Below are positions 18,448-43,919 of a stretch of 54,275 bases of DNA, piece by piece. The notes below the pieces were generated by a model. The model worked only from the letters and a program-made list of their open reading frames with translations. It searched no databases and was not told the origin of the DNA. The DNA comes from a virus: IMG/VR virus record IMGVR_UViG_3300043466_002653, positions 1 through 54,275 of that record; one strand, 5' to 3'. Position 1 is the stretch's first letter, and each line of letters opens with the position of its first letter. The translations under genes were made by a program, and so were the position numbers.

Positions 18448-19179
18448 ATGGCTACTTCTAAGTCTATGGACTTCCCCAATGCAAAAAAATCAAGTTATGC
18501 TGCACAAGTAGAACAAAGTCAAGCATCTGGTAACTCAGATAGTAGTCTTTCATTTATTCCACTACCTGGTCCAGCAGGTCCACAAGGGCCAACAGGTAAA
18601 GATGGGAAAGATGGTAAAACAGGACCACAAGGACCAGAAGGAAAACAAGGACTAAGAGGAGAAAGAGGTTTTCCAGGTAAAGATGGAGAAAGTTCTTTAT
18701 CCTCTTCAGGCCAGCAGTCAGGTTGGGCTTCATATAAAAATATGCCTACCAAACCAACAAAACTTGGAATATCACAAGGAGATGATGGCTGGGTAACTCT
18801 TGTTTTAGACACAAAAGAACAAACTCAAAATGAAAAATATCTTCCTAAAGGCTGTAGCAGTCTTTGGAATAGCCATCAAAGAGCCCTAAACTTCCACGGT
18901 ATTAAAGAAGGCTCACAGGTATTCATAACATACAATATTGACCTAACCACATACAATTCAAACACTGAGGTTTGGTTAAGAACATATTTTGCAAGTAATG
19001 ATCAAGAATTTGTACAGTTTGTAGGCTCTTTTAAATATCAAAACACTTATAGCCTTTCAGTTACCCAAAACATATTTATAGAGAACACGTCTATGTGGGG
19101 CAATGGGGCAGTTCCTCAAATTAGAACAGACTTTGACTCATCTGTAATTTTCAATTCTGTATATGTCAGCGTGGTATAA
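18448..19179 (+). CDS. Collagen-like fibre protein
   Basis: A 243-residue protein. A polar N-terminus (~40 residues) is followed by about 13 Gly-X-Y triplets ([19 protein letters not shown]...[10 protein letters not shown], residues ~41-80), then a C-terminal globular beta domain of ~155 residues that could trimerise the collagen helix as C1q/TNF-like heads do. Most prolines are in the X position; only one (GFP) is in the Y position used by collagen prolyl hydroxylases. Probably a trimeric fibre or decoration protein. Confidence 0.8.
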
Positions 19180-19180
19180 T
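19175..19180 (+). promoter_or_regulatory. -10 box of leaderless promoter
   Basis: TGGTATAAT, six bases before the ATG at 19187, overlapping the stop of the collagen-like gene. Confidence 0.55.
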
Positions 19181-19186
19181 AAAACT

Positions 19187-20050
19187 ATGGCATTTCCAGG
19201 CGAATTAAATATAAATTATTATAAGGGCGACACCCATGAGTTTAAGGTATACCCTCAAAAAACAGACGGATCTATTTTTCAATTAGATGGCTATAGCAAT
19301 GCCACATTTAAAATTGCCGAGATTAGAGGTGCAGCAGGTGTTGCAGATCAAATTACTGGAAGCGCAATAATCTCAACAGATGGAACATATATAACTTGTG
19401 CTATTACTCCAGAAAATGGTGCTGTTATGGATTCAGATACAACCTATGTTTATGACGTTCAGATTTATAGGCAGGGCTCAAACACCTATGATTATGTGTT
19501 TACGCTATTGACTGGATCTATTTCAGTAACAGATGATGTAACCCAAGACATAGGAGATCTTAATAGAGCAATTCCAACATATAGGGTTATTTATCATAAT
19601 ACTAATGCAACAGATGGCGTTATTCCAGTAGATATAAATAAGTACCTTCCAAACCAAAATGTTGTTGTTGCAAACAATGGGACACTTACAAGGGTAGGAT
19701 ACACTTTTGGCGGATGGACAAAGTTTGCAGATAATTCAGGAACTGTTTACCTTGCAGGAGATATTATTCCAGTTAGTGCAGACATAAAACTTTATCCTAA
19801 GTGGCTACCACCAACAGTTACTTACAATAATCAAAGTGCAACAACAAGCCAAATTGGAGGATCAACATCATATATTCCTCAATCAGCAATTTTATCAATT
19901 CCAACAACAGCACCAATTAGAACAGGTTATGTATTTGGTGGATGGTTTACTGGACCAGCAGGTTCTGGAGTACAGGTTACAAATAATTCTTATACTCCTT
20001 TATCTCCATATGATCCAGTTACACTTTATGCTAAGTGGACGGTAGAATGA
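19187..20050 (+). CDS. Virion protein with two InlB/Flg_new repeats
   Basis: A 287-residue protein. Residues 1-~125 resemble the BppU-N-like small virion proteins (YYKGDTHEFKVYP..., LLTGSISVTDDVTQ). Two ~70-residue repeats follow, each ending GYTFGGWTKF...LYPKW and GYVFGGWFTG...LYAKW. This is the hallmark of the Listeria-Bacteroides (InlB B-repeat) beta-grasp module, which occurs in surface proteins and some phage fibres. The start is the ATG behind TGGTATAAT; an upstream start would overlap the previous gene. Confidence 0.78.
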   Translation: MAFPGELNINYYKGDTHEFKVYPQKTDGSIFQLDGYSNATFKIAEIRGAAGVADQITGSAIISTDGTYITCAITPENGAVMDSDTTYVYDVQIYRQGSNTYDYVFTLLTGSISVTDDVTQDIGDLNRAIPTYRVIYHNTNATDGVIPVDINKYLPNQNVVVANNGTLTRVGYTFGGWTKFADNSGTVYLAGDIIPVSADIKLYPKWLPPTVTYNNQSATTSQIGGSTSYIPQSAILSIPTTAPIRTGYVFGGWFTGPAGSGVQVTNNSYTPLSPYDPVTLYAKWTVE

Positions 20051-21456: not shown

Positions 21457-22875
21457 ATGAGTCCTTTATTCCGTAACTATAGCGTAATAGGAATATTTCT
21501 TTCAAGCGATATACCAACACCAACACCAACACCAACACCAACACCAACGCCTACTCCAACTCCAACACCGACCCCAACTCCCACACCAACACCTACTCCA
21601 ACACCAACCCCTACACCTACTCCTACACCAACACCAACACCTACACCAACACCGACCCCTACACCAACACCAGCGTATGATGGTGGAATATGTTCTGCTT
21701 CAGATGTAACAAGTGGAGTTTCTGGATGTAATGTTATAGGAGATTGTTCTGCAATAGGAAGCCAGGGAGGATGTTTCCTTGTTCCATCAGGTGGTTCTGT
21801 TTCTTTGACTGGAAATACTTTAGAAGGAAGTACAATAACAGCAACTACGCTTGGTTGGAGTTCTATACCAACCTCTTATAATGTATTTATTACTGTTACT
21901 AGAAATGGTACTGTGCCAACAGCATTAAGCGAAGTTGTTGCTTCTTCAGCAGGATCTAACTCTGTTACAGCAACTATAGAAACAATTGTTGGACAAGCAC
22001 CTAAATACAGAGCATTTGCTACTGCTACTAACTCTACAGGAACATCTACTCCTGCTGTTATATCACCAGAAATAATTACAGCAACAGCAACCCCTACCCC
22101 AACACCAACTCCAACACCGACCCCTACACCAACACCAACACCTACTCCAACACCTACTCCAACACCAACACCTACACCAACACCGACCCCTACACCAACA
22201 CCAGCGTATGATGGTGGAATATGTTCTGCTTCAGATGTTTCTAACGGAGTTTCTGGATGTACTCAGTCTGGAGTTTCTTGTTCTGTACAAGGAAGCCAAG
22301 CAGGTTGCTTTGTTCCTCCTCCTGCTCCATCAGGCGGATCTGTTTCTTTGACTGGAGATAGCGTAGTAGGAAGTACTATCACAGCAAGTACATCTGGTTG
22401 GGCAAACACACCAACGTCTTACAACGTATTTATTACAGTTTCTAGAACTGGAAGTGCCCCTGGTCCAACAAGCGAACTTGTTGCTTCTTCAGCAGGATCT
22501 GCTTCTGTTACAGCAACCATAGAAGCAATTGTTGGACAAGCCCCTATATACAGAGCCTTTGCTACTGCAACAAATAGTACAGGAACATCTAGCCAAGTTT
22601 CTTCTGGTACAATTACAGCAACGGCACCTCCTCCGTTCTTCCCTCCGTTCTTCCCACCTTTCTTCCCACCATACTTTGCCCCAGCACCTACACCAACGCC
22701 TACCCCAACACCTACACCAACGCCTACCCCAACACCTACACCAACGCCTACCCCGACACCAACGCCAGTTGCACCTACAACATATCAATGCTCTGGCGCT
22801 GATGTTTCAATGGGAGTTCCTGGGTGTAGTTTTATAAACGCTTGTTCTGCTTTTGGAAGCAAGGGACCATGTTAA
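21457..22875 (+). CDS. Thr-Pro repeat protein with Cys and Fn3-like modules
   Basis: A 472-residue protein with a short N-terminus and three (Pro-Thr)n tracts: residues ~20-72 (the longest, about 26 pairs), ~212-249 and ~411-437. Each is followed by a Cys module ([16 protein letters not shown]..., about 35 residues, five to six Cys). Two ~85-residue Fn3/Ig-like modules lie between ([20 protein letters not shown]...). [13 protein letters not shown] stretch precedes the third tract. Probably a virion surface or fibre protein with rigid extended linkers, and the leading candidate substrate for prolyl hydroxylation or glycosylation. AAAGGGA precedes the start. Confidence 0.7.
21514..21673 (+). 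repeat. CCAACA-type repeat, tract 1
   Basis: DNA encoding the first (PT)n tract; degenerate CCA/CCT/CCG-ACA/ACT/ACC hexamers. It shares an exact 80-bp block with tract 2. Confidence 0.8.
21628..21707 (+). repeat. 80-bp exact direct repeat, copy 1
   Basis: Identical to 22159-22238. The offset is 531 bases (177 codons), so recombination between copies would stay in frame. Confidence 0.8.
22090..22203 (+). repeat. CCAACA-type repeat, tract 2
   Basis: DNA encoding the second (PT)n tract. Confidence 0.8.
22159..22238 (+). repeat. 80-bp exact direct repeat, copy 2
   Basis: Partner of 21628-21707. Confidence 0.8.
22688..22767 (+). repeat. CCAACG-type repeat, tract 3
   Basis: DNA encoding the third (PT)n tract, here with an 18-base CCTACACCAACGCCTACC period. 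Confidence 0.75.
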
Positions 22876-22931: not shown

Positions 22932-23384
22932 ATGATTACAGATATAGAAATAACTTTTAACCCAGGTACTAGTGAGCCAGGTGGCGCACCCTTAGCCTTT
23001 GTAATTGAAGAAGATGTATTATATACAATTCCTGCGAGCAAACTTGGAGCAGATCTATTTTTAGATTTTACCGATGCCACAGACATATCTGATAATTTTC
23101 CAGAAAATGACGGTATAACAATTAAGTTTATGAATAATGAAGTAGAACTTGAAACCTTGCATACATCAGAGTATTTTGGTTCAATAATATTAAGCAATCC
23201 CAAAGTTATAAACCTAGTAAATCATAAAAGAGGATATGCTACTGGCGAGCCTGCTAAATTTATAGATAATGAATTTTATGTACTAGATGGAAGAAGTAAT
23301 GATAGTCTATCGGACTGGACCAGTTACAATATGAAAGAAGATGGTTACCAGTGCGAAGGAACCCGTTGTGGTTGCAAAAAGTAG
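22932..23384 (+). CDS. Protein of unknown function with C-terminal Cys motif
   Basis: A 150-residue acidic protein (MITDIEITFNPGTSEPGGAP...), beta-rich, ending CEGTRCGCKK, which could bind a metal. GAGGAGAT lies ahead of the start, so it is translated from a leader, unlike most virion genes here. It begins the modification cassette that runs to 27752. No family recognised. Confidence 0.7.
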   Translation: MITDIEITFNPGTSEPGGAPLAFVIEEDVLYTIPASKLGADLFLDFTDATDISDNFPENDGITIKFMNNEVELETLHTSEYFGSIILSNPKVINLVNHKRGYATGEPAKFIDNEFYVLDGRSNDSLSDWTSYNMKEDGYQCEGTRCGCKK

Positions 23385-23601
23385 ATGGGAATTATATAAA
23401 GAAAAAAATGGAGTAACTCCATTAGATATGTTAAACCCCAATACAAAACGTGTGTCTGATGAAGATGCAAAAACAAGGTTTGACATTTGCAAGGCTTGCC
23501 CAGAATTAATAAAATTAACTTCACAATGTAAACAATGTGGGTGCTTTATGAAGGTTAAGACACAACTTGAAAAAGCAATATGCCCCATTGGAAAATGGTA
23601 G
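23341..23601 (+). CDS. Zinc-ribbon protein, copy B
   Basis: An 86-residue protein. Its C-terminal ~45 residues (ICKACPELIKL, CKQCGCFMKVKT, AICPIGKW) match the zinc ribbon of 14532-14735. The N-terminal ~40 residues are an added helical segment. The ATG at 23341 overlaps the upstream gene by 44 bases; a later GTG could be the true start. It directly precedes a 2OG oxygenase gene. Confidence 0.65.
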   Translation: MVTSAKEPVVVAKSRWELYKEKNGVTPLDMLNPNTKRVSDEDAKTRFDICKACPELIKLTSQCKQCGCFMKVKTQLEKAICPIGKW

Positions 23602-23604
23602 ACA

Positions 23605-24207
23605 ATGATAAAAGAAGAAATAGCGCCAGGAATAGTTGTATATAGTAATGTAATTCCTGACAGTGAAACACTATATGCTGATATTGAAGAAGGTGCTTTT
23701 TCAGCAAAAATTAGTTGGGCAGCAGCAGGAGTCAAAGAATATTCTGATGCAAAAGTAAATACTAAAACAAGAGATACAAGTACAATAGGTGTTAATTATT
23801 TAGGTAATGTTAAAGATGTCTCACTAGTTAATAATGTTAAAGAATTATTTTTTACTAATTTAAATAATATGTTTTTTGAAAATTTTGATCCAATAGAAAA
23901 AGACTACATGGCAACATATGGAATATTTTCAGAGTGGCATGATTCTTATGGTATTTTAAAGTATGGAGAAGGTCAGCAATTTACTAACCATATAGATGAT
24001 CACCCTTCATATCATAGAAGAGTTTCTACTGTATATTATTTAAATGATAATTATACTGGTGGAGAAATTAACTTTCCCCGCTTTAATATTACCTTTAAGC
24101 CAAAGGCTAATCAAATGATAATATTTCCTTCAACATATGTTTATAATCATTCTGTGTCTCCAGTTATTGAAGGCGAAAGGTACGCTGTAGTCAGTTGGTT
24201 AAAATGA
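23605..24207 (+). CDS. 2OG-Fe(II) oxygenase (prolyl 4-hydroxylase type) #1
   Basis: A 200-residue double-stranded beta-helix dioxygenase. Fe(II) ligands are H129-x-D131 and H182; R192 (GERYAVV) should bind 2-oxoglutarate. The core pattern STVYYLNDNYTGGEINFP...FKPKANQMIIFPS...NHSV is that of P4H-like (2OG-FeII_Oxy_3/4) enzymes, which hydroxylate side chains, classically proline, using O2 and 2OG. It follows the Thr-Pro repeat protein region and starts the enzyme cassette. Substrate inferred only. Confidence 0.88.
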   Translation: MIKEEIAPGIVVYSNVIPDSETLYADIEEGAFSAKISWAAAGVKEYSDAKVNTKTRDTSTIGVNYLGNVKDVSLVNNVKELFFTNLNNMFFENFDPIEKDYMATYGIFSEWHDSYGILKYGEGQQFTNHIDDHPSYHRRVSTVYYLNDNYTGGEINFPRFNITFKPKANQMIIFPSTYVYNHSVSPVIEGERYAVVSWLK

Positions 24208-24770
24208 AAGATCCATTATTGGTTGATAATGTTTTAAATACAAAAGACTATGAAAGTTTTATTAATGCTGTTTTAAATCCAAAAAATTTTGAATATCAAG
24301 AAGGATTTTCAAGATATGTGGTGTCAGACAACAACCTTCCAATATTACAAGAAATAGCAGAAAAACTTATACCTGTTGCAAGAGAGGCATTTGGAAGTCA
24401 CACACTACTTCCTACGTATACATTATTTGCACATTATGAAGGAAAAGATCCTGCTCCAAGTCTTTACAAGCACAAAGACGACAATGCTTGCACCTATACA
24501 CTTGACATGTGTGTTTATCAGACTGAGCCGTGGGATTTATGGGTAGAAAATAAAAAGTATACACTTTATCCAAATCAAGCACTGGCCTACTATGGAAATG
24601 ATCAATTACATTGGCGTGAAAAATTTCCTAATCCAGGATTACAACATGTTGCTATGACATTCTTTCATTTTGCAGAGCCAGATCATTGGTATTTTACTAA
24701 AGGACCAAACTATTTGCAAGTCATTAGAAAAGAAATAACAGAAGATCAATGGGAGGATAATATAAAATGA
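24204..24770 (+). CDS. Divergent 2OG-Fe(II) oxygenase-like protein #2
   Basis: A 188-residue protein overlapping the previous gene by four bases. H90-x-D92 (KHKDD) and H136 (LHWRE) would form the iron triad, with R138 close by. The hallmark LNDDYxGGE is absent, but the strands TYTLDMCVYQ and LYPNQALAYYGNDQLHW fit the fold. Probably a different substrate subtype; inactive relatives cannot be excluded. Confidence 0.62.
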   Translation: MKDPLLVDNVLNTKDYESFINAVLNPKNFEYQEGFSRYVVSDNNLPILQEIAEKLIPVAREAFGSHTLLPTYTLFAHYEGKDPAPSLYKHKDDNACTYTLDMCVYQTEPWDLWVENKKYTLYPNQALAYYGNDQLHWREKFPNPGLQHVAMTFFHFAEPDHWYFTKGPNYLQVIRKEITEDQWEDNIK

Positions 24771-25786
24771 AGCCTATATTCTTTCAACTTTGGAATGCTG
24801 GATTGTTTAATCAAGTTTTAAGTTTAGAACTAGCAGTAGGTATTGCTCACGAAACCAAGCAACCAACAATTGTTCATTTTTTTTGTCATGACCCAAACAG
24901 AAATATATATATCTCTACTCCAAGCATACACTTTAATGATCAAAGAAATAATTTTACAGATCGTTCTTTTAAAAACAACCCTCATCTTTTAGACTTGTTT
25001 GATATTGATACAGACCTAGTCATTGTTAATGAAAAAATAAACTCATTTAAACAAGAAGAGTTTGTTATAGATGAGTTAGCAACAAAGTATTATTATAGTA
25101 AAGAGTTAGAAGTAACAGATGATGAATTATTGTTTGCAGAAGGCAGAGAAAGGCTTACTTTTGACAAAAGCATACATTTAAAAGGCACCCTAGGAGTTTA
25201 CTCAAGATTTTTTTATAACAGAAGTCCTGAGTTAAACAAAGCAATATCTTCAGTTAGGCCTAAGAAAGTTTATAGAGACTTGGCTAAAAAAATATCAGCA
25301 TCTCTTGGTAGTTTTCAAGGAATGCATTTAAGATTATCAGATCATGCTGTAAGTGTAGATTATCACAAAGAGGAAATAGTAAATGACTGGATAACTAAAT
25401 ATGAAAGCAATGGCCTTCCTATTGTTTTGTCTACAGACGAACCAAGTCACCCATTGGTAAATAAAAATAAGCATAGATTCATTTTATTAGATGAATATAT
25501 AGTTAATAATTTTAGAGATGACTTTATGTCTCTACCGTTTCAAGATGAAGTAGTCTTTGGTCTTATTTGTAACTTGGTCTTGCATGACTCAGTAAATTTT
25601 GTAGGAAAATCTGGTACCACCTATACATCATACATTCACAGAAACAGGAATCAAAAAGGTATTGAAACCTGGGATTTTTTTGATAGCCCACAGCAAGCAA
25701 AAGGACAACCATACTCTTGGAATGATTATCCCAGACCAAATGATCAAAAAATGTGGTGGAGAGAGTGGCCAGAATCAAAATGTTAA
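24767..25786 (+). CDS. O-fucosyltransferase-like glycosyltransferase
   Basis: A 339-residue protein. Features resembling the GT-B protein O-fucosyltransferase group (GT65/GT68/GT23-like): an N-terminal LWNAGLFNQVLSLELAVGIA (cf. GG(L/F)xNQ), a central GMHLRLSDH (cf. HLRxxD), VLSTDEP, and a late FVGKSGTTYTSYIHRNR (cf. G...S.F). These enzymes use GDP-L-fucose or related GDP-sugars. ATGA overlap with the oxygenase upstream. Acceptor unknown; the neighbouring proline/threonine-rich virion proteins are candidates. Confidence 0.6.
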   Translation: MKPIFFQLWNAGLFNQVLSLELAVGIAHETKQPTIVHFFCHDPNRNIYISTPSIHFNDQRNNFTDRSFKNNPHLLDLFDIDTDLVIVNEKINSFKQEEFVIDELATKYYYSKELEVTDDELLFAEGRERLTFDKSIHLKGTLGVYSRFFYNRSPELNKAISSVRPKKVYRDLAKKISASLGSFQGMHLRLSDHAVSVDYHKEEIVNDWITKYESNGLPIVLSTDEPSHPLVNKNKHRFILLDEYIVNNFRDDFMSLPFQDEVVFGLICNLVLHDSVNFVGKSGTTYTSYIHRNRNQKGIETWDFFDSPQQAKGQPYSWNDYPRPNDQKMWWREWPESKC

Positions 25787-26724
25787 AAAACAAAGTAATT
25801 ATAAATGCTTGGACAGGCCGATTTGGAAATAGAATGCACGAGTATGCATTTGCTAAAACATATGCACATAAAAACAATATGGATGTTGAACTTTTATCAA
25901 AATGGGAAGGCTCTGTAATGTTTAAAAATGCAACGGAACCTTTAATAGAGTTTGCAGAGTTACGAGAATATTTAAAAGATGGCTGGAGACCAAGACAGGA
26001 AAGAGAGAATGAAACATTAAAATATTATCCAGGATCTATATATTGGAATGGGAATTGGCAACCAGCAGACCCATACAAAAACAATAACTGTACAATAATA
26101 ACAAATGACACTAATGCATATCAAGAATCTATATTTGATCAAATGGAACTATCATACATAAAACATATTTTTGAATTAAGTGATTTAGTAAAAGAGTCTA
26201 ATACTTATAAGTATTGGGAATCAAAAGCAGGAACTTATGATGTTGCTCATCTTCGTAGAGGAGACATTGCGGACGCTAACTACAATTTAAATAATGATCA
26301 AGGATATTCCGTAGTCTCAAAAGATTCTTATTTTTCTGCTTTTGAAAAATTTGGTTATGACAAAAATAATATTGAATGGATATCGGATGATCACACAAAA
26401 AAATGGCATCCAGATAGACCAGATATGGTTTTTCTACCATGGTCTTATCCAGAAGGTGCTCAGTTTGACAAAAATATAATCTTTGATTTTCTTGATGATT
26501 GGTTAAAAATGTATTTTGCCAGAACAATATTTAGAGGAAATAGTAGTTTTTCTTTTTGGGCAGGATTGCTATCTCCAACAGCCAATGTTTATTCTCCAAT
26601 AATTGATAAACAACTAATATATGGTCGTAATGGACTTACAGAAGAAATTAATTTAGAATTTACAGAAGGTAATGAAAACCATTGGATGTATTCCGATACA
26701 CCAAGAAAGATAAGGATACGATGA
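25780..26724 (+). CDS. Fucosyltransferase-like glycosyltransferase (GT11-like)
   Basis: A 314-residue protein. WTGRFGNRMHEYAFAKTYA at the N-terminus (cf. GGLGNQMFQYA), VAHLRRGDIAD with the HxRRGD motif that binds the GDP moiety, and FRGNSSFSFWAGLLSP near the end are typical of alpha-1,2/1,6-fucosyltransferase folds (GT11 and relatives). I start at the ATG overlapping the upstream stop codon rather than at an earlier in-frame codon. It lies between a second transferase and the epimerase that makes a GDP-L-sugar. Confidence 0.72.
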   Translation: MLKNKVIINAWTGRFGNRMHEYAFAKTYAHKNNMDVELLSKWEGSVMFKNATEPLIEFAELREYLKDGWRPRQERENETLKYYPGSIYWNGNWQPADPYKNNNCTIITNDTNAYQESIFDQMELSYIKHIFELSDLVKESNTYKYWESKAGTYDVAHLRRGDIADANYNLNNDQGYSVVSKDSYFSAFEKFGYDKNNIEWISDDHTKKWHPDRPDMVFLPWSYPEGAQFDKNIIFDFLDDWLKMYFARTIFRGNSSFSFWAGLLSPTANVYSPIIDKQLIYGRNGLTEEINLEFTEGNENHWMYSDTPRKIRIR

Positions 26725-27752
26725 AAACAGCATTAGTTTTAGGAGCAGGTGGTTTTATAGGAAGCCATATGGTAAAGCGTTTAAAGTCAGAAGGATACTG
26801 GGTCAGAGGCGTTGATTTAAAACATCCAGATTTTTCTGAAACTCAGGCAGATGAGTTTATTGAAAGAGATCTATCTGTCTATGAAAATGTTGAAAAAGCA
26901 ATTCAGTTTAAGGGGCATTTTGGTAATTTTTATTCAGAAATACCATACAAATTAATAACAACATTTGATGAAATATATCAGTTTGCAGCAGACATGGGTG
27001 GTGCTGGATATATTTTTACTGGAGAAAATGATTCTCAGATTATGGAAAACTCTGCACTTATAAACCTTAATTTACTTAGGGCTCAATCAAGACTAAACGC
27101 AAAATATGATATTAACAAAACCAAGATATTCTATTCAAGTTCTGCTTGTATGTATCCTGATTACAAGCAGTTAGATGTTAGTAATCCTGGACTTAAGGAG
27201 TCTGATGCATACCCTGCAGATCCTGACAGCGAGTATGGCTGGGAAAAACTATTTAGTGAAAGAATGTTTTTAGCGTTTAATAGAAACAACAAGATCCCAG
27301 TAGCCATTGCCAGATATCATAATATTTATGGACCAGAAGGAACTTGGGATGGTGGAAAAGAAAAGGCTCCTGCTGCAATGTGTCGAAAAGTTATACAAGC
27401 AGATGGCTTTATAGAAATTTGGGGGGATGGAGAACAAACCCGATCATTCCTATATATAGATGAATGCATAGAGGCAACAAGAAGGCTTATGAAATCCGAC
27501 TTTTCTGGACCTGTTAATATTGGGTCTGAGGAAATGGTTACTATTAATCAGTTAGTAGACATTGCTTGCAGTATTGAGGGCAAGGTTTTAAGCAAGATGC
27601 ACATTCCTGGACCTTTAGGAGTTAGAGGCAGAAATTCTAATAACGACCTGGTCAGAGAAAAGTTAGGATGGGATTATTCTATGTCTCTTAAAGATGGAAT
27701 TAAAAAAACTTATAACTGGATACTTCAGGAAACAAAAAAGAACCCCTCCTAA
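26721..27752 (+). CDS. GDP-mannose 3,5-epimerase
   Basis: A 343-residue extended SDR. GAGGFIGSH binds NAD; FYSSSACMYP carries the Ser/Cys catalytic segment; DSEYGWEK gives Tyr and Lys of YxxxK. Further close matches to plant GME are RYHNIYGPEGTWDGGKEKAPAAMCRK, IWGDGEQTRSFLYIDECIE, NIGSEEMVTINQ and IPGPLGVRGRNSNN. The enzyme converts GDP-D-mannose to GDP-L-galactose (and GDP-L-gulose). ATGA overlap with the transferase gene makes a tight cassette. Its stop codon lies in the loop of the terminator at 27742-27759. Confidence 0.92.
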   Translation: MKTALVLGAGGFIGSHMVKRLKSEGYWVRGVDLKHPDFSETQADEFIERDLSVYENVEKAIQFKGHFGNFYSEIPYKLITTFDEIYQFAADMGGAGYIFTGENDSQIMENSALINLNLLRAQSRLNAKYDINKTKIFYSSSACMYPDYKQLDVSNPGLKESDAYPADPDSEYGWEKLFSERMFLAFNRNNKIPVAIARYHNIYGPEGTWDGGKEKAPAAMCRKVIQADGFIEIWGDGEQTRSFLYIDECIEATRRLMKSDFSGPVNIGSEEMVTINQLVDIACSIEGKVLSKMHIPGPLGVRGRNSNNDLVREKLGWDYSMSLKDGIKKTYNWILQETKKNPS

Positions 27753-27773: not shown

Positions 27774-28337
27774 TTATTTAGGAAATTTAGCCATCCAAGT
27801 TTTAGTCCTTGGAGTGATGCCCTTCCATGAAGACCAGTCGTCTCCACCGTTACTCATATAGTATGCAATCTCTGCATTCTTGACGGGATTGAAAAGGTCA
27901 GCGTTAGAGTCAAGATCAAATTTTGTTCTACGATCAGGACCAAGGGAATCAATCATATTAATTTGGAACATTCCATAAGACGAGTCACCAGTCTTATGAT
28001 TACCATTAAAAGCCAGTGGTCGCCCATTAGACTCCTTTTTAGCAACTGCCCAAGCGACTACAAGGTCTTTACCCTTGAAGCCTACTAAGGACAGAAGTTC
28101 CTTTAGTTCTAAATCAGTCAGAGAAACTTTATTTTCAAAACTCTCCAACTTTTTAGCCTTAGAAACCAAAAAAACCTCTTTCGAGGCGATTTCTACTGTT
28201 TGAGCCTGTTTCAGGCTAAGGTTATTTTTCGTACTTATTTCTGGAGCAGCATTAGCAGCATTAGAAAATACACTGATAAGTGCCACGATACTGAGTGTGC
28301 TAATGATCTCTTTGTTTCTTTCGATAAATTTAATCAT
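27774..28337 (-). CDS. Secreted lysozyme / lytic transglycosylase-like endolysin
   Basis: A 187-residue protein. It has an N-terminal signal peptide (MIKFIERNKEIISTLSIVAL... ending near ANAA-PEI, ~33 residues), a linker, then an SLT/goose-lysozyme-type domain: AWAVAKKESNGRPLAFNGN with the catalytic Glu, GDSSYGMFQIN, and a C-terminal YYMSNGGDDWSSWKGITPR. It should cleave peptidoglycan glycan strands outside the membrane. It is the only reverse-strand gene in the virion block, with its own promoter, an AAGGAGG Shine-Dalgarno and a terminator, so it is regulated separately. Confidence 0.82.
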   Translation of the reverse strand: MIKFIERNKEIISTLSIVALISVFSNAANAAPEISTKNNLSLKQAQTVEIASKEVFLVSKAKKLESFENKVSLTDLELKELLSLVGFKGKDLVVAWAVAKKESNGRPLAFNGNHKTGDSSYGMFQINMIDSLGPDRRTKFDLDSNADLFNPVKNAEIAYYMSNGGDDWSSWKGITPRTKTWMAKFPK

Positions 28338-28340
28338 AGT

Positions 28341-28349
28341 TTCCTCCTT
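28341..28349 (-). promoter_or_regulatory. Strong Shine-Dalgarno of lysozyme gene
   Basis: AAGGAGGAA, three bases before the ATG at 28337. It decides this start over an upstream in-frame codon. Confidence 0.7.
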
Positions 28350-28360
28350 AGAAAACAATA

Positions 28361-28376
28361 ACACCCTGATAGGTGT
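28361..28376 (-). other. Leader hairpin of lysozyme mRNA
   Basis: ACACC/GGTGT stem in the 5' leader, 12 bases upstream of the Shine-Dalgarno. Confidence 0.35.
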
Positions 28377-29638: not shown

Positions 29639-30085
29639 ATGGCTAAGATATCAATCGCAAATGTAAAGAATCTGTTTCAAACAGGTGACAGACCTACTCA
29701 AGCAGACTATGTTGATTTAATTGATACTGCAACTGCTCAAGCAACAGATCTGGGTTCAGCAGGTAACAATGAAACTACAATCAATGGTCTTGAGACCGCA
29801 ACTGTTATTGATGACTTTGATGCAACAGTTTGGCGTATGGTGAAGTATATTATTTCAATAGCAAAAACTTCAGCAGGGGACAACAAGTTCTACGCAACTG
29901 AATTAACAATTCTCGTTGACGGTACAGATGTATCTGTTAGCGAATATGGAACAATCGACACGAATGGGAATATTGGCACCATTAATGTCTCTCGCACTGG
30001 AAATACCGTGGCTATTACAGTCACTCCAGATCCTGCGATAAGGCCAGTCACTGTACGTTACGCACGTATAGGACTTAAGGCATAA
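29639..30085 (+). CDS. Fibre-associated protein with shared C-terminal domain
   Basis: A 148-residue protein. Residues ~1-30 (MAKISIANVKNLFQTGDRPTQADYVDLID) form an adaptor seen before fibre domains. Residues ~60-148 (WRMVKYIISIAKTS...NKFYATELTILVDGTDVSVSEYGTI...) match the last ~85 residues of the long fibre at 30102-33401 (AAKYFVQMKKDND...MLVAVDGNNNVYVTEYGNV...). Possibly an alternative or chaperone-like fibre tip. Confidence 0.65.
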   Translation: MAKISIANVKNLFQTGDRPTQADYVDLIDTATAQATDLGSAGNNETTINGLETATVIDDFDATVWRMVKYIISIAKTSAGDNKFYATELTILVDGTDVSVSEYGTIDTNGNIGTINVSRTGNTVAITVTPDPAIRPVTVRYARIGLKA

Positions 30086-35246: not shown

Positions 35247-36545
35247 ATGGCAGCAGGAAAAAAAGCAGGTAGAAAGTCTCAAGCGTCTAACGACTTCTTA
35301 GAGCCTTTAGCACCAACAGGTGCTACAGCAACAAACGTAGGAACAGCAAGAGCCTTTAATAATGGTTCAGCAACCGTTTCTTTCTCTCTACCAGCACTTT
35401 CTCCAGCAGCCACATCCTTTACAGCCACATCTTCTCCTGGAGGATACACTGCAACTGGCGCTAGTTCACCACTTACAGTAACTGGTCTTCAATCTAATAC
35501 TGCATATACATTTACAGTAACAGCAACAAATGCTGCAGGAACATCCGCTGCTTCAGCAGCATCTGCTTCAATTACTGCAACAACAGTTCCAGCAACACCT
35601 TCAGCACCAACTGTAACTACACAGGTTAATCAGGATAACGTTTCTTGGTCTGCCCCAGCAACTGGTGGATCTGCAATTACTGGATATACTTGGGCATCTT
35701 CTGATGGCAAGGGTGCAACAGTAGGATCAGCAGTAATAACTGCTGCAGTTACACAAGAAGGCGGAACTGCTCAGACCTATACTGTTTATGCAACAAATGC
35801 TAATGGTAACTCTGCAGTATCTCCAGCATCTAACTCTGTTACCACTACCCCACCATTCTTCCCACCGTTCTTTCCACCGTTCTTTCCGTTCTTTCCACCA
35901 TTCTTCCCACCATTCTTTCCGTTCTTCCCATTCTTTCCACCATTTTTCCCACCATTCTTTCCACCTTTCTTTCCACCATTCTTCCCATTCTTCCCATTCT
36001 TCCCACCTTTCTTCCCACCATACTTCCCATTCTTTCCTAACTTTTATGGAAACCTTGGTTGTATTGAAGCAGAGACTGAGTTACTTACTCCAACTGGTTT
36101 AGTTAAGGCTAAAGATCTTCAAATTGGAGATACAGTCTACTCAATAGACCTAAATGAGATGGGTCCAGACGAAGAAGACACATACATGCTATGGAGTTCA
36201 AACTCCTTAACAGCAAAAACTGCAGGATACGTAGAGGCTACAATTACAAACATTAGTCTTTCTGTTAAAGACAAGGTAGTATTCTTTAATAATAATAGAT
36301 CAGCCTCGTACTCTCTTACACAGCCAATCTTTATTAAAGACGCAGAAGGTACGTTTGGAATGAAAATTTCTTACGACATATGTGTTGGAGATACGCTAAT
36401 CAAAATACTTGCTGATGGATCAATAACAGAAGAGTTGGTAATCCGTATAGGATACACAGAACTTCCAGAAATATCAACTTACGCTATCTCTGTTGAACCG
36501 TATGACTGGTTTATCGCTGGTGGATTCTTAGTTCACAATAAGTAA
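35247..36545 (+). CDS. Fn3 / Pro-Phe repeat protein with C-terminal Hint domain
   Basis: A 432-residue protein. A basic N-terminus (GKKAGRKSQ) precedes two Fn3-like modules (~20-115, ~118-200). A ~60-residue Pro-Phe tract built from PPFF units follows (~204-265). Then a Hint (hedgehog/intein) domain runs from C272 (GCIEAETELLTPTGLVKAKD) to the end (DWFIAGGFLVHNK, N431). The C-terminal HN is kept, but only one residue follows it, and the block-B TxxH histidine appears to be Gln (SLTQPIFI). It may self-cleave or have become a structural tip. AGGAG precedes the start. Confidence 0.8.
   Translation: MAAGKKAGRKSQASNDFLEPLAPTGATATNVGTARAFNNGSATVSFSLPALSPAATSFTATSSPGGYTATGASSPLTVTGLQSNTAYTFTVTATNAAGTSAASAASASITATTVPATPSAPTVTTQVNQDNVSWSAPATGGSAITGYTWASSDGKGATVGSAVITAAVTQEGGTAQTYTVYATNANGNSAVSPASNSVTTTPPFFPPFFPPFFPFFPPFFPPFFPFFPFFPPFFPPFFPPFFPPFFPFFPFFPPFFPPYFPFFPNFYGNLGCIEAETELLTPTGLVKAKDLQIGDTVYSIDLNEMGPDEEDTYMLWSSNSLTAKTAGYVEATITNISLSVKDKVVFFNNNRSASYSLTQPIFIKDAEGTFGMKISYDICVGDTLIKILADGSITEELVIRIGYTELPEISTYAISVEPYDWFIAGGFLVHNK
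35851..36041 (+). repeat. Pro-Phe coding repeat
   Basis: Degenerate CCACCNTTCTTY units encoding PPFF repeats; no exact long period. Confidence 0.75.
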
Positions 36546-36639: not shown

Positions 36640-37380
36640 ATGAATTATCATACTTTGCCAGAAGCAAATATTAACGATGAAAACTCTAACCACTGGTTTA
36701 CAAAAGATAGATCAGAAACAGCATCAAACAGAATTCCTAATAGACAACTAGATGAAAATATTGTTGTTGAAAATCTTGGACTAGGTTTGCATGTCTACCA
36801 TGATACATTTTCTTTAGATGATGCCAACAGATATATAGAAACTCTTGAGTCAAATTTAGGAAAAAATGGAAAATATAGTTGGTCAGAAGCACAAGTAACA
36901 AACTCTTCAACGCCAATTAAAAAGGCAAGAGACTGCGTAGACTTTAAATATAAACAAGAAAATTTAGGGCCTAAAAATGATACTAATTCAGAATTAATAG
37001 ATTTGCACGAAGAAATATATCAAAAACTTAAGTATTGCATTGATGATTATGCAAAGTACTGGGGTATCAATGTAGTATATTATGAGGCCTTTAACTTTGT
37101 TAAGTATGAAGGAGAAGGCACACACTTTAATATTCATGCAGACCATGGACCAGCCTACAACTGTACAGTGTCTGCTGTAATATATATCAACGATGATTAT
37201 AAAGGCGGGGATTTAAAATTCCCACGATTAGACAATCTTATTATTAAACCAAGAGTAGGAGATATAGCGGTATTTCCATCAAACTATATTTATGAACATG
37301 CCTCACTACCAATGGAGTCAGGAACAAAGTACTGTGTAGTTGTTATGACAGATATTAATGAGATAGGTCATAAGAAATGA
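36640..37380 (+). CDS. 2OG-Fe(II) oxygenase (P4H type) #3
   Basis: A 246-residue enzyme. An N-terminal extension of ~45 residues is followed by the beta-helix core with H166-x-D168 (HADH), INDDYKGGDLKFP, PRVGDIAVFPSNYIYEH (H220) and K230 (SGTKY) in place of the usual Arg. Lys at this position is typical of collagen-type prolyl 4-hydroxylases. First gene of the block behind the promoter at 36609; its stop overlaps the next ATG. Confidence 0.88.
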   Translation: MNYHTLPEANINDENSNHWFTKDRSETASNRIPNRQLDENIVVENLGLGLHVYHDTFSLDDANRYIETLESNLGKNGKYSWSEAQVTNSSTPIKKARDCVDFKYKQENLGPKNDTNSELIDLHEEIYQKLKYCIDDYAKYWGINVVYYEAFNFVKYEGEGTHFNIHADHGPAYNCTVSAVIYINDDYKGGDLKFPRLDNLIIKPRVGDIAVFPSNYIYEHASLPMESGTKYCVVVMTDINEIGHKK

Positions 37381-38153
37381 GCATAAAATCTAATCTTGTT
37401 ATTTTTAAATCATACAGACCATGGCTAAATAAAAAAAGTTTATCTATTCCAGAACCAACACAGAATGTAATTCCTGAGTGGTATAAAGATGCAGATAGAT
37501 TTGCAAAAATGCCAAATGGAGAATATTGGAAAGCAACAAAAGAAGTTTGTCCATTTCCAAAAGAAGGAACAACAGATGATTTTGGTAAAATTCCTACATG
37601 GAAAGCATGTCCAGCAATCCTGGATGCATTTACAACAGGATATATATTTAAAACCCCATGCGATTTAATATTTTTTAAAAACAGTCAGGGAGTTATTAAT
37701 GTTAAAATTGAAGATGAAAAATATAAAGATTTTTGTACTCAAAGGCCTCCAATGCCACAGTTTGAACATCCCAAAGGATATTATCAAAACCATTTTGCCT
37801 GGAATTCAATTTGGGGTTTAGAGTTACCAGAAGGCTATAGCACATTGCTTATGACCCCAATGAATAGGTTTGATCTTCCTTTTTTAAATACTACTGGTGT
37901 CGTTGATTCTGATAAAGTCCATCTACTTGGAAGTTTTCCATTTTTTATTGTAGATGGATGGGAAGGAACTATTCCAGCAGGAACACCATATATGCAAGCA
38001 CTTCCATTTAAAAGAGAAAACTGGGAACATCAAATAGACATCCTGGATCAGTCTAAAATTTATGATAAAGTTAATAATAACGTAAAGTTTTACCGTCAGC
38101 CTGACGGCGGGGTATATAAAAATAAAATTTGGTCAAGAAGAGAATATAGATAG
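37377..38153 (+). CDS. DUF6065-like protein (tentative) A
   Basis: A 258-residue protein (MSIKSNLVIFKSYRPWLNKK...) with IPEWYKD near residue 35, KACPAILDAFTTGYIFKTPCDL, NSIWGLELPEGYSTLLMTPMNR and GTPYMQALPFKRENW. This strand-rich pattern resembles a protein group found beside 2OG oxygenases in cyanophage-like genomes; I relate it loosely to DUF6065. No iron triad is visible. Coupled to the oxygenase genes on both sides, so it may assist or accept modification. Confidence 0.5.
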   Translation: MSIKSNLVIFKSYRPWLNKKSLSIPEPTQNVIPEWYKDADRFAKMPNGEYWKATKEVCPFPKEGTTDDFGKIPTWKACPAILDAFTTGYIFKTPCDLIFFKNSQGVINVKIEDEKYKDFCTQRPPMPQFEHPKGYYQNHFAWNSIWGLELPEGYSTLLMTPMNRFDLPFLNTTGVVDSDKVHLLGSFPFFIVDGWEGTIPAGTPYMQALPFKRENWEHQIDILDQSKIYDKVNNNVKFYRQPDGGVYKNKIWSRREYR

Positions 38154-38162
38154 GGATAAACT

Positions 38163-38819
38163 ATGCAAACATGGACAGAAAAACAAGACCTTGGCAATGG
38201 AATCTTTTGCTACAAGGGAGTAATTAAAAAAGAGATTGATGTTATAGGTAGGATTGAATCCAACCTCAAACCAGTAGGAGATACATCTGGATATGCATGG
38301 CAACCAGCGTATGTTGGTTATCAGCAATTAATGCCAGAATACCGTGACTGCAATGATTTTAAGTTTAAAAAAACAGATATAGAAAATGATAAAAGCAAGA
38401 TTAGTCTAAACCTTCAGTCTTTGTGGCAAGACTTGTATGATGTTAAACTGCCTGCGGTTGAAGACTACTCAAGAATGTATAATATTAATAATTTAAAGTA
38501 CTGGGAGGCGTTTAACTTTATTAAGTACGGCCCAGGACAACACTTTATGGAACATCATGATCACGGATTTTCATATAACTGTACTCTTTCTTTGGTTGCA
38601 TATCCGAATGATGACTACGAAGGAGGAGAACTTTTCTTTAGATTACAAAATCTAAAAGTTAAAGCAGATGCTGGAGATCTTTTTATTTTTCCATCAAACT
38701 TTATGTATCCTCATCAAGCAATGCCAGTGACTTCTGGAACCAAGTACTCTATTGTTACTATGTTAGATTATAGTAAAAAGTTCCACACTCAAGAAATGTA
38801 TAATGCAGAGGCCGACTAA
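38163..38819 (+). CDS. 2OG-Fe(II) oxygenase (P4H type) #4
   Basis: A 218-residue enzyme with H131-x-D133 (HHDH), YPNDDYEGGELFF, DAGDLFIFPSNFMYPH (H184) and K194 (SGTKY). It is closest in style to #3 (same SGTKY, FPSN and FNFxKY segments), suggesting an in-block duplication. Confidence 0.88.
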   Translation: MQTWTEKQDLGNGIFCYKGVIKKEIDVIGRIESNLKPVGDTSGYAWQPAYVGYQQLMPEYRDCNDFKFKKTDIENDKSKISLNLQSLWQDLYDVKLPAVEDYSRMYNINNLKYWEAFNFIKYGPGQHFMEHHDHGFSYNCTLSLVAYPNDDYEGGELFFRLQNLKVKADAGDLFIFPSNFMYPHQAMPVTSGTKYSIVTMLDYSKKFHTQEMYNAEAD

Positions 38820-39547
38820 TGTTTAAAATTTCAGTTGAAAAAACACAAGGATGTTCTTTTGTTGTTCAACCAATGTCAATAAAAAGAGATTGGATGGAAG
38901 AAACATCAGAAGGGCATGCATATAGATGTTTTCCAGTAACACAATCAAACGTTATTGGTTGGAGCCTTTCTTGTATTAATGATATAGAGTTTATCTGGGA
39001 CGGTATTAATGATCAAAGCCCAGACCACATTGATATAATAAAAGCACCTGAAGGATCTTACGAAGGAAGAGGTCAATCATCTATTAGTTTTCATACTGGT
39101 TTAATTTTTAGAACTGAAGAAGAAGTTAGTCTTTTTACCATAAACCCTGTAAACTATTTTAGTGATGATTTTGAAACAATGTCTAACCTAATCAGCACAT
39201 CATTCTACGACAATCCACTTCCACTAGCAATTAAGGCAAGAAAAGCAAATGAAAAAATAACAATAAAGGCTGGAACACCAATAGCAACAATAATTCCAAT
39301 ATCTTTGACTAACTTAAATAATAGTACAATAGAAATTGTTGATTATAAAGATCCAGATAGATCAAGAATTGAGTCAAATATTGCTTATGGAGAAGCAGCC
39401 CAAGTTGTTAATTCTTCTGGTCAGTGGACAGATTGGTATAGAGATGCAGTAAATGAAAAACAAGAGTCTTTGGGTAGCCATGAAGTAAAAGTTTTAAAAC
39501 TTAAAGTAGAAGATAATACTAAAAATAGATTGGGTGGTATAATTTAA
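38819..39547 (+). CDS. DUF6065-like protein B
   Basis: A 242-residue protein with KRDWMEET...HAYRCFPVTQSNVIGWSLSC...WDG, SFHTGLIFRTEEEVSLFTINPVNYF and a late KITIKAGTPIATIIPI. These segments match the DUF6065 family as I recall it (RxWMD...AYRCLPL...GW; RTP...GPPN; GEP). It is a beta-rich protein of unknown activity, often beside oxygenases. Its start overlaps the stop of #4 (TAATG). Confidence 0.6.
   Translation: MFKISVEKTQGCSFVVQPMSIKRDWMEETSEGHAYRCFPVTQSNVIGWSLSCINDIEFIWDGINDQSPDHIDIIKAPEGSYEGRGQSSISFHTGLIFRTEEEVSLFTINPVNYFSDDFETMSNLISTSFYDNPLPLAIKARKANEKITIKAGTPIATIIPISLTNLNNSTIEIVDYKDPDRSRIESNIAYGEAAQVVNSSGQWTDWYRDAVNEKQESLGSHEVKVLKLKVEDNTKNRLGGII
39538..39543 (+). promoter_or_regulatory. 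-10 box of leaderless promoter within oxygenase block
   Basis: TGGTATAAT, six bases before the ATG at 39550; the stop of the preceding gene lies inside the promoter. Confidence 0.55.
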
Positions 39548-39549
39548 AC

Positions 39550-40221
39550 ATGAACAACTTAGACAATGTAGTGGTTAGAAAACCTTCAATGACTCCTTCT
39601 GGATGGTTTGGAGATAGCAAAGACATGATCGTTGAGTTAGAAAACTTTATGACTCAAGAAGAGATGGACTTTTTAGAAAAGGCTGCAAAATCTTTAACTA
39701 TTTGGGACGTAACACAAAGCCATGTAAACGAAAATGGAACAGTTGTTTATGATTCAGATTATTGGAAAGACAGAGTTGCTACTCAACCAACATTAGATAA
39801 AAATGATCCCTCTATATCTCCAATAATCGCTGGATTATTTAAAAGACTAAAGCCAATAATTGAAGAATTTTATAAAGTAGAGGTCACCCCAACTGGAACA
39901 ACTATTGTCAAATGGCTTCCAGGACAATTTCAAAGACCTCACGCAGACAAAGAACTGCATGATGGACCAGATGCTGGATTACCAAACGACTTTCCAAACT
40001 ATGACCTATCAAGTTTATTTTATTTAAATGAAGACTATGAGGGTGGAGAACTATATTTTCCTCTACAGGGAGTACAGTTTAAACCTAAAAAGGGTGCTGC
40101 TTATTTTTTCCCAGGAGACAAAAACTATATTCACGGAGTAACAGAAATAAAAAGTGGATTAAGGTTTACATGCCCTTTCTTTTGGGAAATTACAAAGCAC
40201 ACTGGAGACAGGAAGCCATAA
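39550..40221 (+). CDS. 2OG-Fe(II) oxygenase (P4H type) #5
   Basis: A 223-residue enzyme with H131-x-D133 (RPHADKELH), a 20-residue acidic insert, FYLNEDYEGGELYFP, KPKKGAAYFFPGDKNYIH (H195) and an Arg in GLRFTC as 2OG ligand. It has its own leaderless promoter, so this half of the block can be expressed separately. Confidence 0.87.
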   Translation: MNNLDNVVVRKPSMTPSGWFGDSKDMIVELENFMTQEEMDFLEKAAKSLTIWDVTQSHVNENGTVVYDSDYWKDRVATQPTLDKNDPSISPIIAGLFKRLKPIIEEFYKVEVTPTGTTIVKWLPGQFQRPHADKELHDGPDAGLPNDFPNYDLSSLFYLNEDYEGGELYFPLQGVQFKPKKGAAYFFPGDKNYIHGVTEIKSGLRFTCPFFWEITKHTGDRKP

Positions 40222-40222
40222 A

Positions 40223-41095
40223 ATGACTAATAAAAATCTTGAAGCAGTAGAAATATATCCTAATATTATTGTATATAAGAATATGTTTAAAGATATTTCA
40301 AAGTCATACAAAGTTTTAACAGATTCTTTAATTGAGACAGAAGATAGGGTTTTTAGTCCTTGGACACAATGGTCTATTTTTGGAGACTACCTAAATCCAA
40401 TAGTTCCTATTTTTTCTATGTCAGAAAAGTTTGGAAATTTAAAAAATATAGAAACAACCACACAAGTTCAAGAAGATCAAAAAAACTTTGCTATTGAAAT
40501 GATGGAAAACTTTCATTTAGTTACAGAAGACTATATTAAAACCTACGGCATTGATGTAGACTTAAATGCAACATCTATTAATGAATTAGGTGAGACGGTT
40601 CCTACTTGGAGATGGACTGGTGGAACAATTGGAAAATACCATGTAAGTAATGAAACTGAAAAACATGGTATGAGATATCACTCAGATTATATGCCAGAAC
40701 AAGGACAAGCCCCAGGATACAAATTTATAATAACCTGTACAATTTACTTTAATGATGACTATGAGGGTGGAGAGGTTGACTTTGTTATGGGAGATAAACT
40801 TGTAAAGTACAAGCCAGAAGCAGGAGACCTTTTAGTTTTTCCATCAGGGCATCCAGAATATCTTACAGAAGAAGGAAAGCCTTACCTTCACGGAGTAATG
40901 CCCTCATATAATAAAAATAAATTTTTATCAAGAATGTATTGGCAAAAATACCAAAGTGGAACAGATGAGTGGTATAAAAAAGAAAAAGAATTTGGCAAAG
41001 AAACTTGGCTTGAAATGCAACCAGAACTAGAAAAAGAATTTAGAAAAAAGTACCCACAAAGATCTGAAATAGAAAATGGAGTAAGACTGTCATGA
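40223..41095 (+). CDS. 2OG-Fe(II) oxygenase (P4H type) #6, long
   Basis: A 290-residue enzyme, the longest of the set. H153-x-D155 (YHSDYMPEQG), IYFNDDYEGGEVDF, KPEAGDLLVFPSGHPEY, H223 (YLHGVMPS) and an Arg in FLSRMYW. The C-terminal ~55 residues are a charged helical extension (WYKKEKEFGKETWLEMQPEL...). Its length may mark a different substrate. Confidence 0.86.
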   Translation: MTNKNLEAVEIYPNIIVYKNMFKDISKSYKVLTDSLIETEDRVFSPWTQWSIFGDYLNPIVPIFSMSEKFGNLKNIETTTQVQEDQKNFAIEMMENFHLVTEDYIKTYGIDVDLNATSINELGETVPTWRWTGGTIGKYHVSNETEKHGMRYHSDYMPEQGQAPGYKFIITCTIYFNDDYEGGEVDFVMGDKLVKYKPEAGDLLVFPSGHPEYLTEEGKPYLHGVMPSYNKNKFLSRMYWQKYQSGTDEWYKKEKEFGKETWLEMQPELEKEFRKKYPQRSEIENGVRLS

Positions 41096-41847
41096 ATCTA
41101 AATAATAAAAAAAGATTAACAAAAGATATAGTAGTTTATGAAAACTTTATAAGCAAAGAAAATTGTGTAAAAATGATACAGGCTTTAGATGCTCAAGCAA
41201 ATAATGGTGGAATTACCTGGATGCCTATTTCATTCTATGAGTCATACTCTTCCATATTGCCACAAGATAATGATCAAGAATTAATCGATGCTGGATTATC
41301 TCCTACTATTTTTTCAGATATTGAAAAAATAATGCCAGAAGCAATTGCTTCAGTACACGATCTTGACCCAAAAACAATTTCTAAGATTGGATACCATACA
41401 CAAAAGTGGGAACCAGGAGCGTATGCAAGAGTGCACTCAGATAATACAGATGCTGAAGGAAAGTCTGGAGCATTTACAAGAAGTCGATACGCTGGATTTC
41501 TTTACTTAAATGATGACTTTGAAGGTGGTCTATTAAAGTTTCCAGATCAAAACATAGAGATTAAGCCACAAGTTGGAATGCTTGCTGTTTTTGACGGGGG
41601 ATTTAATAATATGCATGAAGTATCATTGATTGAAAGTGGAGTAAGATACACCATAGGATCTTTCTGGGATGACAGAGAAGAGTCTGATTATCCACAAGAA
41701 TTAAGAGATGCTTGGGCAGCAGAAATGAAAGAGACAAGAGCGCAACAAGAAATTGAAAGAGCAGAGTGGCAAGACCTGCTTAAGCAAGGCTGGAAATTAG
41801 ATGCAGATGGAAAAAAGTATAAGATAGAAGATGGTAAAAATGATTGA
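41092..41847 (+). CDS. 2OG-Fe(II) oxygenase (P4H type) #7
   Basis: A 251-residue enzyme with H115-x-D117 (RVHSDNTD), FLYLNDDFEGGLLKFP, KPQVGMLAVFDGGFNNMH (H175) and an Arg in GVRYTIGSFW. The C-terminal ~55 residues are helical and charged (ELRDAWAAEMKETRAQQEIE...). ATGA overlap with #6. Confidence 0.87.
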   Translation: MNLNNKKRLTKDIVVYENFISKENCVKMIQALDAQANNGGITWMPISFYESYSSILPQDNDQELIDAGLSPTIFSDIEKIMPEAIASVHDLDPKTISKIGYHTQKWEPGAYARVHSDNTDAEGKSGAFTRSRYAGFLYLNDDFEGGLLKFPDQNIEIKPQVGMLAVFDGGFNNMHEVSLIESGVRYTIGSFWDDREESDYPQELRDAWAAEMKETRAQQEIERAEWQDLLKQGWKLDADGKKYKIEDGKND

Positions 41848-42499
41848 ATCTTTTAAGAAGCAGTTGTTTGATAAAGGTTATTCTATTGAAGAAATTACTC
41901 CCCAATTAATATCTGTTGAAAACTTTTTATCAAAAGAGCAGTTAGAAGATTTTGCTAGTATTATAAATAATACTTCACAAGAAGATTGGGAAGTAGAATA
42001 TCATGCTAATTTAGCAAAATTTTGTATAGAAAAGTTTGGAAGAAGCGACGTAGATAATTTAGTTGCAGAAGGAAAATTTGAAATTACTCAAAACTGGAAA
42101 GATAAAAATTTTAATATAAGTAAACAACCTGTCATTAAACCACTCTATAAAGGTTTAAACTCAATGGTAGTAAGTTCAGATCCAGAACTTCATTTAAGTG
42201 GACTGGCAACAATTCAAAGAATGCAACATGGGGTAGAGTTAAAATCACATACGGACCAACACACAGACCCATCTATTAGATATGCTACAATTATTTATCT
42301 AAATGATGATTATGTAGATGGTGAACTGTTTTTTCCAAAGTTAGGTATAGAATTAAAACCTAAAGCAGGAACGCTAGTATTTTTTCCAGGCAATGAAGAA
42401 TACGAACATGGAGTTAAACATGTAGGAGAAGGACAGATTAGATATGTTCTTGTTGGCTTTATTAAAGAAAAAGATCACTACAAAAAGAATAAGTACTAG
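41840..42499 (+). CDS. 2OG-Fe(II) oxygenase (P4H type) #8
   Basis: A 219-residue enzyme with H137-x-D139 (SHTDQH), IIYLNDDYVDGELFFP (one Gly of the usual GG is Asp), KPKAGTLVFFPGNEEYEH (H190) and an Arg in QIRYVLVGF. The start is the ATG overlapping the stop of #7; a second in-frame ATG lies three codons upstream. Confidence 0.87.
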   Translation: MIESFKKQLFDKGYSIEEITPQLISVENFLSKEQLEDFASIINNTSQEDWEVEYHANLAKFCIEKFGRSDVDNLVAEGKFEITQNWKDKNFNISKQPVIKPLYKGLNSMVVSSDPELHLSGLATIQRMQHGVELKSHTDQHTDPSIRYATIIYLNDDYVDGELFFPKLGIELKPKAGTLVFFPGNEEYEHGVKHVGEGQIRYVLVGFIKEKDHYKKNKY

Positions 42500-42509
42500 G
42501 GGGAATAAA

Positions 42510-43913: not shown

Positions 43914-43919
43914 GAAAAT

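Follow-up and report, generated by a model that had tools for sequence, protein, structure and literature searches.

A putative swappable hydroxylation and glycosylation cassette with a GDP-mannose 3,5-epimerase beside the repeat protein of a lake phage

The 54-kb IMG/VR record IMGVR_UViG_3300043466_002653 (positions 1 to 54,275, called the window in this text) comes from a lake virus that infects bacteria and whose relatives number hundreds. Within its late tail genes lies a run of five genes, at 23605-27752, for two oxygenases, two glycosyltransferases and a GDP-mannose 3,5-epimerase (GME). This cassette was compared with about 200 related IMG/VR loci, which are labelled with L-numbers where they need to be told apart. 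The locus is composed of the following features.

21457..22875, plus strand: Thr-Pro repeat protein, the proposed acceptor (472 aa), with three (TP)n tracts plus a segment of 15 residues
22932..23384, plus strand: open reading frame (ORF) of 150 aa with no assigned family; copies 32-40% identical at the matching place in some related loci
23341..23601, plus strand: DUF6171 zinc-ribbon-like protein, 86 aa (PF19668, E 1.6e-6)
23605..24207, plus strand: OxyA, Fe(II)/2-oxoglutarate (2OG) oxygenase, prolyl-4-hydroxylase-like, with HxD...H and Arg (PF13640, E 1.1e-18)
24204..24770, plus strand: OxyB, second oxygenase-like protein, 188 aa, with H90-x-D92 ... H136 (phrog_2954, E 1.6e-14)
24767..25786, plus strand: GT1, O-FucT-like glycosyltransferase with a GxHxRxxD motif (PF10250 matches in its family; fold matches)
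25780..26724, plus strand: GT2, GT11/NodZ-like glycosyltransferase with an HxRR[GD]D motif (PF01531 matches in its family; fold matches)
26721..27752, plus strand: GME, 343 aa, with GxxGxxG, C143, Y172xxxK176, K215 and R304 (2c59, E 5.2e-92)
27774..28364, minus strand: SLT-family lysozyme-like protein, conserved right border of the slot in which cassettes are swapped (PF18896, E 1.5e-16; synteny)

Consecutive overlaps of 4, 4, 7 and 4 nt join the five genes, so that the gene calls agree with an earlier note on this DNA, which had read them as one unit. That note placed the start of the cassette at 22932, which has to be corrected: this position opens the separate 150-aa ORF, for which no Pfam or PHROG match was found, and the first oxygenase gene, after that for DUF6171, starts at 23605. 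The Thr-Pro protein is indeed upstream, as it stated, though two small genes stand between and the two are not immediately adjacent. The proposed search for this gene order in other phages found the five-gene set kept in dozens of IMG/VR contigs; therefore the cassette is not a chance assembly.

The description of the epimerase as a close match to plant GME was correct. Its best PDB matches are structures of Arabidopsis GME, over the whole length of the protein. The residues listed as defining GDP-mannose 3,5-epimerases (GM35E) are GxxGxxG, a Ser, YxxxK, the catalytic Cys, a Lys and a conserved Arg (PMC6678494). In the phage enzyme, the core of the short-chain dehydrogenase/reductases (SDR) is present as G8/G11/G14, S141, Y172 and K176, which are invariant in 71 GME homologues save for the Ser/Thr position (55/16), and C143, K215 and R304 (C145, K217 and R306 in Arabidopsis) are found in 71/71 phage homologues. 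All GM35E catalytic residues are thus intact and the protein is predicted to be active. It shares the catalytic motifs and strong sequence similarity with plant and bacterial GM35E (AtGME and the Methylacidiphilum enzyme) and differs from them in being phage-encoded and known from sequence.

The best PDB match of OxyA is a bacterial prolyl 4-hydroxylase (3itq, E 1.6e-6), followed by PKHD and EGLN1. Its iron triad is conserved among distinct homologues (H129 and D131 in 53/53, H182 in 51/53), as is R192, which binds 2OG. OxyA thus appears closest to prolyl hydroxylases, with proline as putative substrate. OxyB gave no Pfam match and, in a single-sequence search, no clear PDB match; its HxD...H triad is kept in 63/63 homologues.

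As single sequences, GT1 and GT2 gave nothing strong, and the PDB search with GT2 returned no meaningful match. Their families are more informative. Matches to O-FucT (PF10250) at E<=1 were obtained for 19/25 members of the GT1 family (best 9.4e-5), and weak matches to GT11 (PF01531) for 5/22 members of the GT2 family (best E 1e-3), the window proteins themselves giving none. In fold searches, the top 26 PDB matches of GT1, from a low-confidence model, are all FUT8, NodZ or POFUT1, and for GT2, with an AlphaFold model of pLDDT (predicted local distance difference test) 84, 50/50 among the matches listed are NodZ, FUT8, AtFUT1 or POFUT1 (best E 1.7e-5). Invariant residues include H187, R189 and D192 of GT1 (54/54 homologues) and H157, R159, R160 and D162 of GT2 (21/21). 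Both are, as modelled, enzymes of the fucosyltransferase fold (GT11/GT23/GT37/GT65-type GT-B), and the family and fold matches uphold the earlier reading of two fucosyltransferase-like enzymes. An SGNH-hydrolase-like gene (our own reading, no Pfam match) recurs in GT1 cassettes, for instance at L023:3810-4766 and in relatives, and may add or remove acyl groups of a glycan.

The presence of GME is obligatorily coupled to that of these transferases. It was found in 84/84 intact intervals holding GT1 or GT2; among those with neither, 2/29 gave an epimerase match, only 27-28% identical. Most of these loci were collected through similarity to the window. A second scan used a cassette-independent marker, with predictions fixed beforehand, and gave 49 new intervals, in which GME is present in 2/2 with GT1 or GT2 versus 0/47 without. 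The same holds for whole contigs of about 100 kb (n=15): a GME of 51-93% identity occurs in 8/8 with GT1/GT2 and in 0/7 with other cassettes, whose sole epimerase-like match is one SDR, 26% identical. No GDP-mannose dehydratase (gmd) was detected over the cut-off in 19 contigs, and no GDP-mannose pyrophosphorylase (GMP_PMI) in 14. Since neither was found, host GDP-mannose is the likely substrate of GME and, as GME is tied to GT1/GT2, its product is the parsimonious donor. Synthesis of GDP-fucose by the phage itself is unsupported for the same lack of gmd. GDP-L-galactose is accepted by fucosyltransferases of this superfamily, according to the cases of FUT8 and AtFUT1 cited in PMC8787198. GDP-L-galactose made from host GDP-mannose is therefore the likely donor on sequence grounds, and is favoured over GDP-fucose. 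The earlier note had left the sugar as L-galactose or fucose; the coupling narrows the donor in this way, and the preference for L-galactose over L-gulose or L-fucose stays a prediction.

The cassette occupies a slot flanked by the repeat ORF and the minus-strand lysozyme-like gene, and the enzyme content of this slot varies among relatives. It is one of several interchangeable cassettes, a point missed in the earlier note. Transferases of family PF11397 (Gnt1 family), absent from the window cassette, occur in the slot of relatives, also beside OxyA/OxyB, and were confirmed in 10/10 tested (E 1e-20 to 1e-49). Other slots hold GT61 with or without a cupin domain, an HtrL/YibB-type protein, GT2-type transferases, radical SAM enzymes, or nothing. 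PF11397 includes the Skp1 type of N-acetylglucosamine (GlcNAc) transferase, which acts on hydroxyproline or threonine. Members of GT60 glycosylate the hydroxyproline of Skp1 after prolyl hydroxylation, as well as a polypeptide of T. cruzi (PMC6939170). L125, L126, L127 and L167 each encode a fusion of DUF6171 with a PF11397 glycosyltransferase, which Pfam searches confirmed in L126 and L167. This links the zinc-ribbon gene of the window to glycosylation; the fusions at L126:6153-7352 and L167:7397-8602 are a clue to DUF6171 function. The idea that GlcNAc-type loci split perfectly by the presence of oxygenases turned out to be wrong, as the fusion loci break the pattern.

Which protein the cassette acts on is suggested by the repeats rather than by adjacency. 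The Thr-Pro protein contains 60 TP pairs, the longest run being 26. However, nearly every relative has a Thr/Pro/Ser-rich ORF next to the slot, whether or not GME is present (T+S+P averages 41% in ORFs at the repeat position and 20% in other forward ORFs). Adjacency by itself thus carries no information, and the idea that a Thr-Pro protein beside GME is special in itself was rejected. By contrast, nearest-neighbour prediction of the cassette from the type of repeat succeeds in 62% of cases versus 17% for the null, in 53% among backbones <=65% identical, and still in 48% when the two proteins of a pair are alike in nothing but their repeats; from the tail backbone alone it succeeds in 26%. VTP repeats are found in 15/15 GT61/cupin loci versus 1/82 others. 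The median content of [AVS]P (AP/VP/SP) repeats is 0.25 in GT1 loci versus 0.04 in GT2 loci (p 3e-7), and in 9/9 backbone-matched pairs Thr is lower with GT1 than with GT2. Loci with FTP-type repeats hold no recognised cassette enzyme. The strict pairing of GT61 and/or cupin-domain cassettes with VTP repeats can be seen in L130, L142, L146, L224, L205 and L275. In L061, the repeats read PVAPAPVAPAP, with almost no Ser/Thr, and OxyA, OxyB, GT1 and GME are all present, so GT1 may be able to act on proline-derived sites. Since cassette type tracks the repeat and hardly the backbone, the repeat protein is pointed to as the acceptor. The earlier proposal of a Thr/Ser-rich fibre as acceptor gains strong support from this covariation, which was observed across loci; hydroxylation, glycosylation and a place in the virion are still predictions.

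Putting these elements together, we lean slightly towards the view that the locus encodes a swappable module for the hydroxylation and glycosylation of a candidate virion repeat protein, the sugar in this phage being an L-sugar. GME would convert host GDP-D-mannose into GDP-L-galactose and some GDP-L-gulose; OxyA, perhaps with OxyB, would hydroxylate prolines of the neighbouring repeat protein; and GT1 and GT2 would transfer the L-sugar, either directly or with one extending the product of the other. The probable targets are X-Pro (hydroxyproline) repeats for GT1 and, for GT2, repeats that are Thr-rich or of the TPTP kind. Such a module would yield a rigid stalk or fibre coated with sugar, presumably on the virion and of some benefit to the phage. 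Relatives would exchange Skp1-type GlcNAc-transferases or GT61 enzymes in the modular slot along with the matching repeat. The wider picture is held more tentatively, at somewhat less than an even chance: freshwater phages of a large group, probably infecting actinobacteria, would have hydroxyproline- and threonine-linked glycoprotein fibres and interchangeable cassettes, each with its own repeat motif, the window version being L-galactosylation.

Several points weigh against this module. The association between oxygenases and proline is modest and significant in-sample only (p 0.005, versus p 0.10 out of sample and p 0.09 within GlcNAc-type loci). The GT1 model has a pLDDT of 54. The GT1-versus-GT2 contrast in the repeats is also an in-sample result, the new loci holding no GT2-only case, and recruitment of most loci by similarity to the window is a weak point. 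Block inheritance of neighbouring genes yields some covariation by itself, an account that is weakened in part by the 48% success among pairs that resemble each other in the repeats alone. Finally, cyanophage GMEs of the same clade, 60-70% identical to that of the window, sit among polysaccharide-type rather than fibre genes.

The alternative that survives best, although we regard it as rather unlikely, is that the enzymes have separate targets, the oxygenases acting on metabolites or on the collagen-repeat tail protein at 18448-19179 (PF01391) and the transferases on Ser/Thr without hydroxylation. That collagen-like protein is nearby, widely conserved in the group and a possible alternative substrate for a prolyl hydroxylase; the weak oxygenase-proline correlation fits as well, as do loci with GT2 and GME that lack both OxyA and OxyB (L016, L037). 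However, the collagen-like protein also occurs in loci without OxyA/OxyB (L167, L194, L154), for which reason it is not favoured as their sole target. Moreover, OxyA/OxyB belong to the same overlapping run as the transferases, and L061-type repeats offer hardly any Ser/Thr.

It is unlikely that the enzymes alter the host surface (cell-wall or lipid glycans), blocking superinfection or changing receptors, with the repeat protein beside them by coincidence. The cyanophage GMEs speak for this, and the authors on cyanophage S-SCSM1 count its GME and fucosyltransferases among the genes for modifying the cell wall (PMC9602691); for isolated acI phages, too, glycosyltransferases have been discussed along these lines (PMC10202952). 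Nevertheless, the cassette lies among late tail genes and encodes two hydroxylase-like proteins, no polysaccharide-assembly genes accompany it, and its type follows the repeat rather than the backbone. The portal is closest to those of Streptomyces phages (46-48% identity), which makes an actinobacterial host likely and suggests a Gram-positive cell without lipopolysaccharide. Just as improbable, in our opinion, is that virion protein glycosylation is right but with L-fucose from host GDP-L-fucose or with L-gulose, a side product of GME (PMC6678494): GT1 and GT2 do belong to the fucosyltransferase superfamily, but GME accompanies them every time and, in 19 contigs, no gmd was found over the cut-off.

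The proposed module can be compared with known systems. To our knowledge, protein glycosylation that depends on hydroxylation is considered a feature of eukaryotes, and we know of no established substrate for phage-encoded 2OG oxygenases; beyond plants and algae, L-galactose is rare. In the Skp1 pathway of Dictyostelium and Toxoplasma (PhyA, Gnt1 (GT60), PgtA), a 2OG prolyl hydroxylase is likewise followed by glycosyltransferases on the hydroxylated protein, and relatives of this phage hold Gnt1-family enzymes in the same slot. That pathway, however, is eukaryotic, modifies one site of a cytosolic protein and starts with UDP-GlcNAc, whereas the window combines GME and enzymes of the fucosyltransferase fold with a candidate acceptor rich in repeats; the comparison is one of working alike, not of membership. 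Plant extensins and arabinogalactan proteins have AP/SP/TP/VP tracts with prolyl hydroxylation and glycosylation. The phage repeats resemble such hydroxyproline-rich glycoproteins in their tracts and in the predicted modifications, although the plant proteins use other sugars and transferases and the phage system is known from genes alone.

Among phages, the enzyme set has a partial precedent in S-SCSM1, which encodes GME, O-FucT, alpha-1,2-FucT, a NodZ-like enzyme and 24 2OG oxygenases; it differs in also having GMD and Fcl and in a GME placed in a polysaccharide-type region, not beside a repeat fibre, and the part of its description consulted here mentions no matched-repeat system (PMC9602691). 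In mycobacteriophages Che8 and Rita, phage glycosyltransferases glycosylate the capsid (Freeman et al. 2023, cited in PMC11256854). These are also actinophage enzymes making virion-protein glycans, as predicted for the window, but there, as cited, the acceptor is the capsid and no hydroxylase or GME is described. Among the papers that our literature searches turned up, none describes phage cassettes of hydroxylases and glycosyltransferases that are paired with repeat proteins, so the new part is this pairing together with a dedicated L-sugar epimerase. The locus supplies a concrete candidate substrate for phage 2OG oxygenases and a source of enzymes with defined repeat specificity, and the pairing would explain the swapping of repeat proteins in abundant lake phages. 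If true, it would be a prokaryotic-virus counterpart of glycosylation of the extensin, mucin or Skp1 type, with an enzyme-repeat code.

Homologues of GT1 and GT2 occur in about 100 IMG/VR contigs and, by tblastn against INPHARED, in no isolated phage. For the tail marker at 29639-30085, at least 592 relatives were found in IMG/VR and none in INPHARED, and a search of bacterial genomes with GT1 and this marker, as a clue to host or origin, gave no match. Elsewhere in the window, 19163-20050 encodes a tail-region protein with Listeria-Bacteroides (InlB-type) repeat domains, and 35247-36545 a fibronectin-III domain protein with long PPFF repeats and, in our own reading, a Hint-like C-terminus. 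This PPFF protein is followed at 36640-44486 by eight PF13640 oxygenases, an SDR and a methyltransferase-like gene, a second arrangement resembling the cassette.

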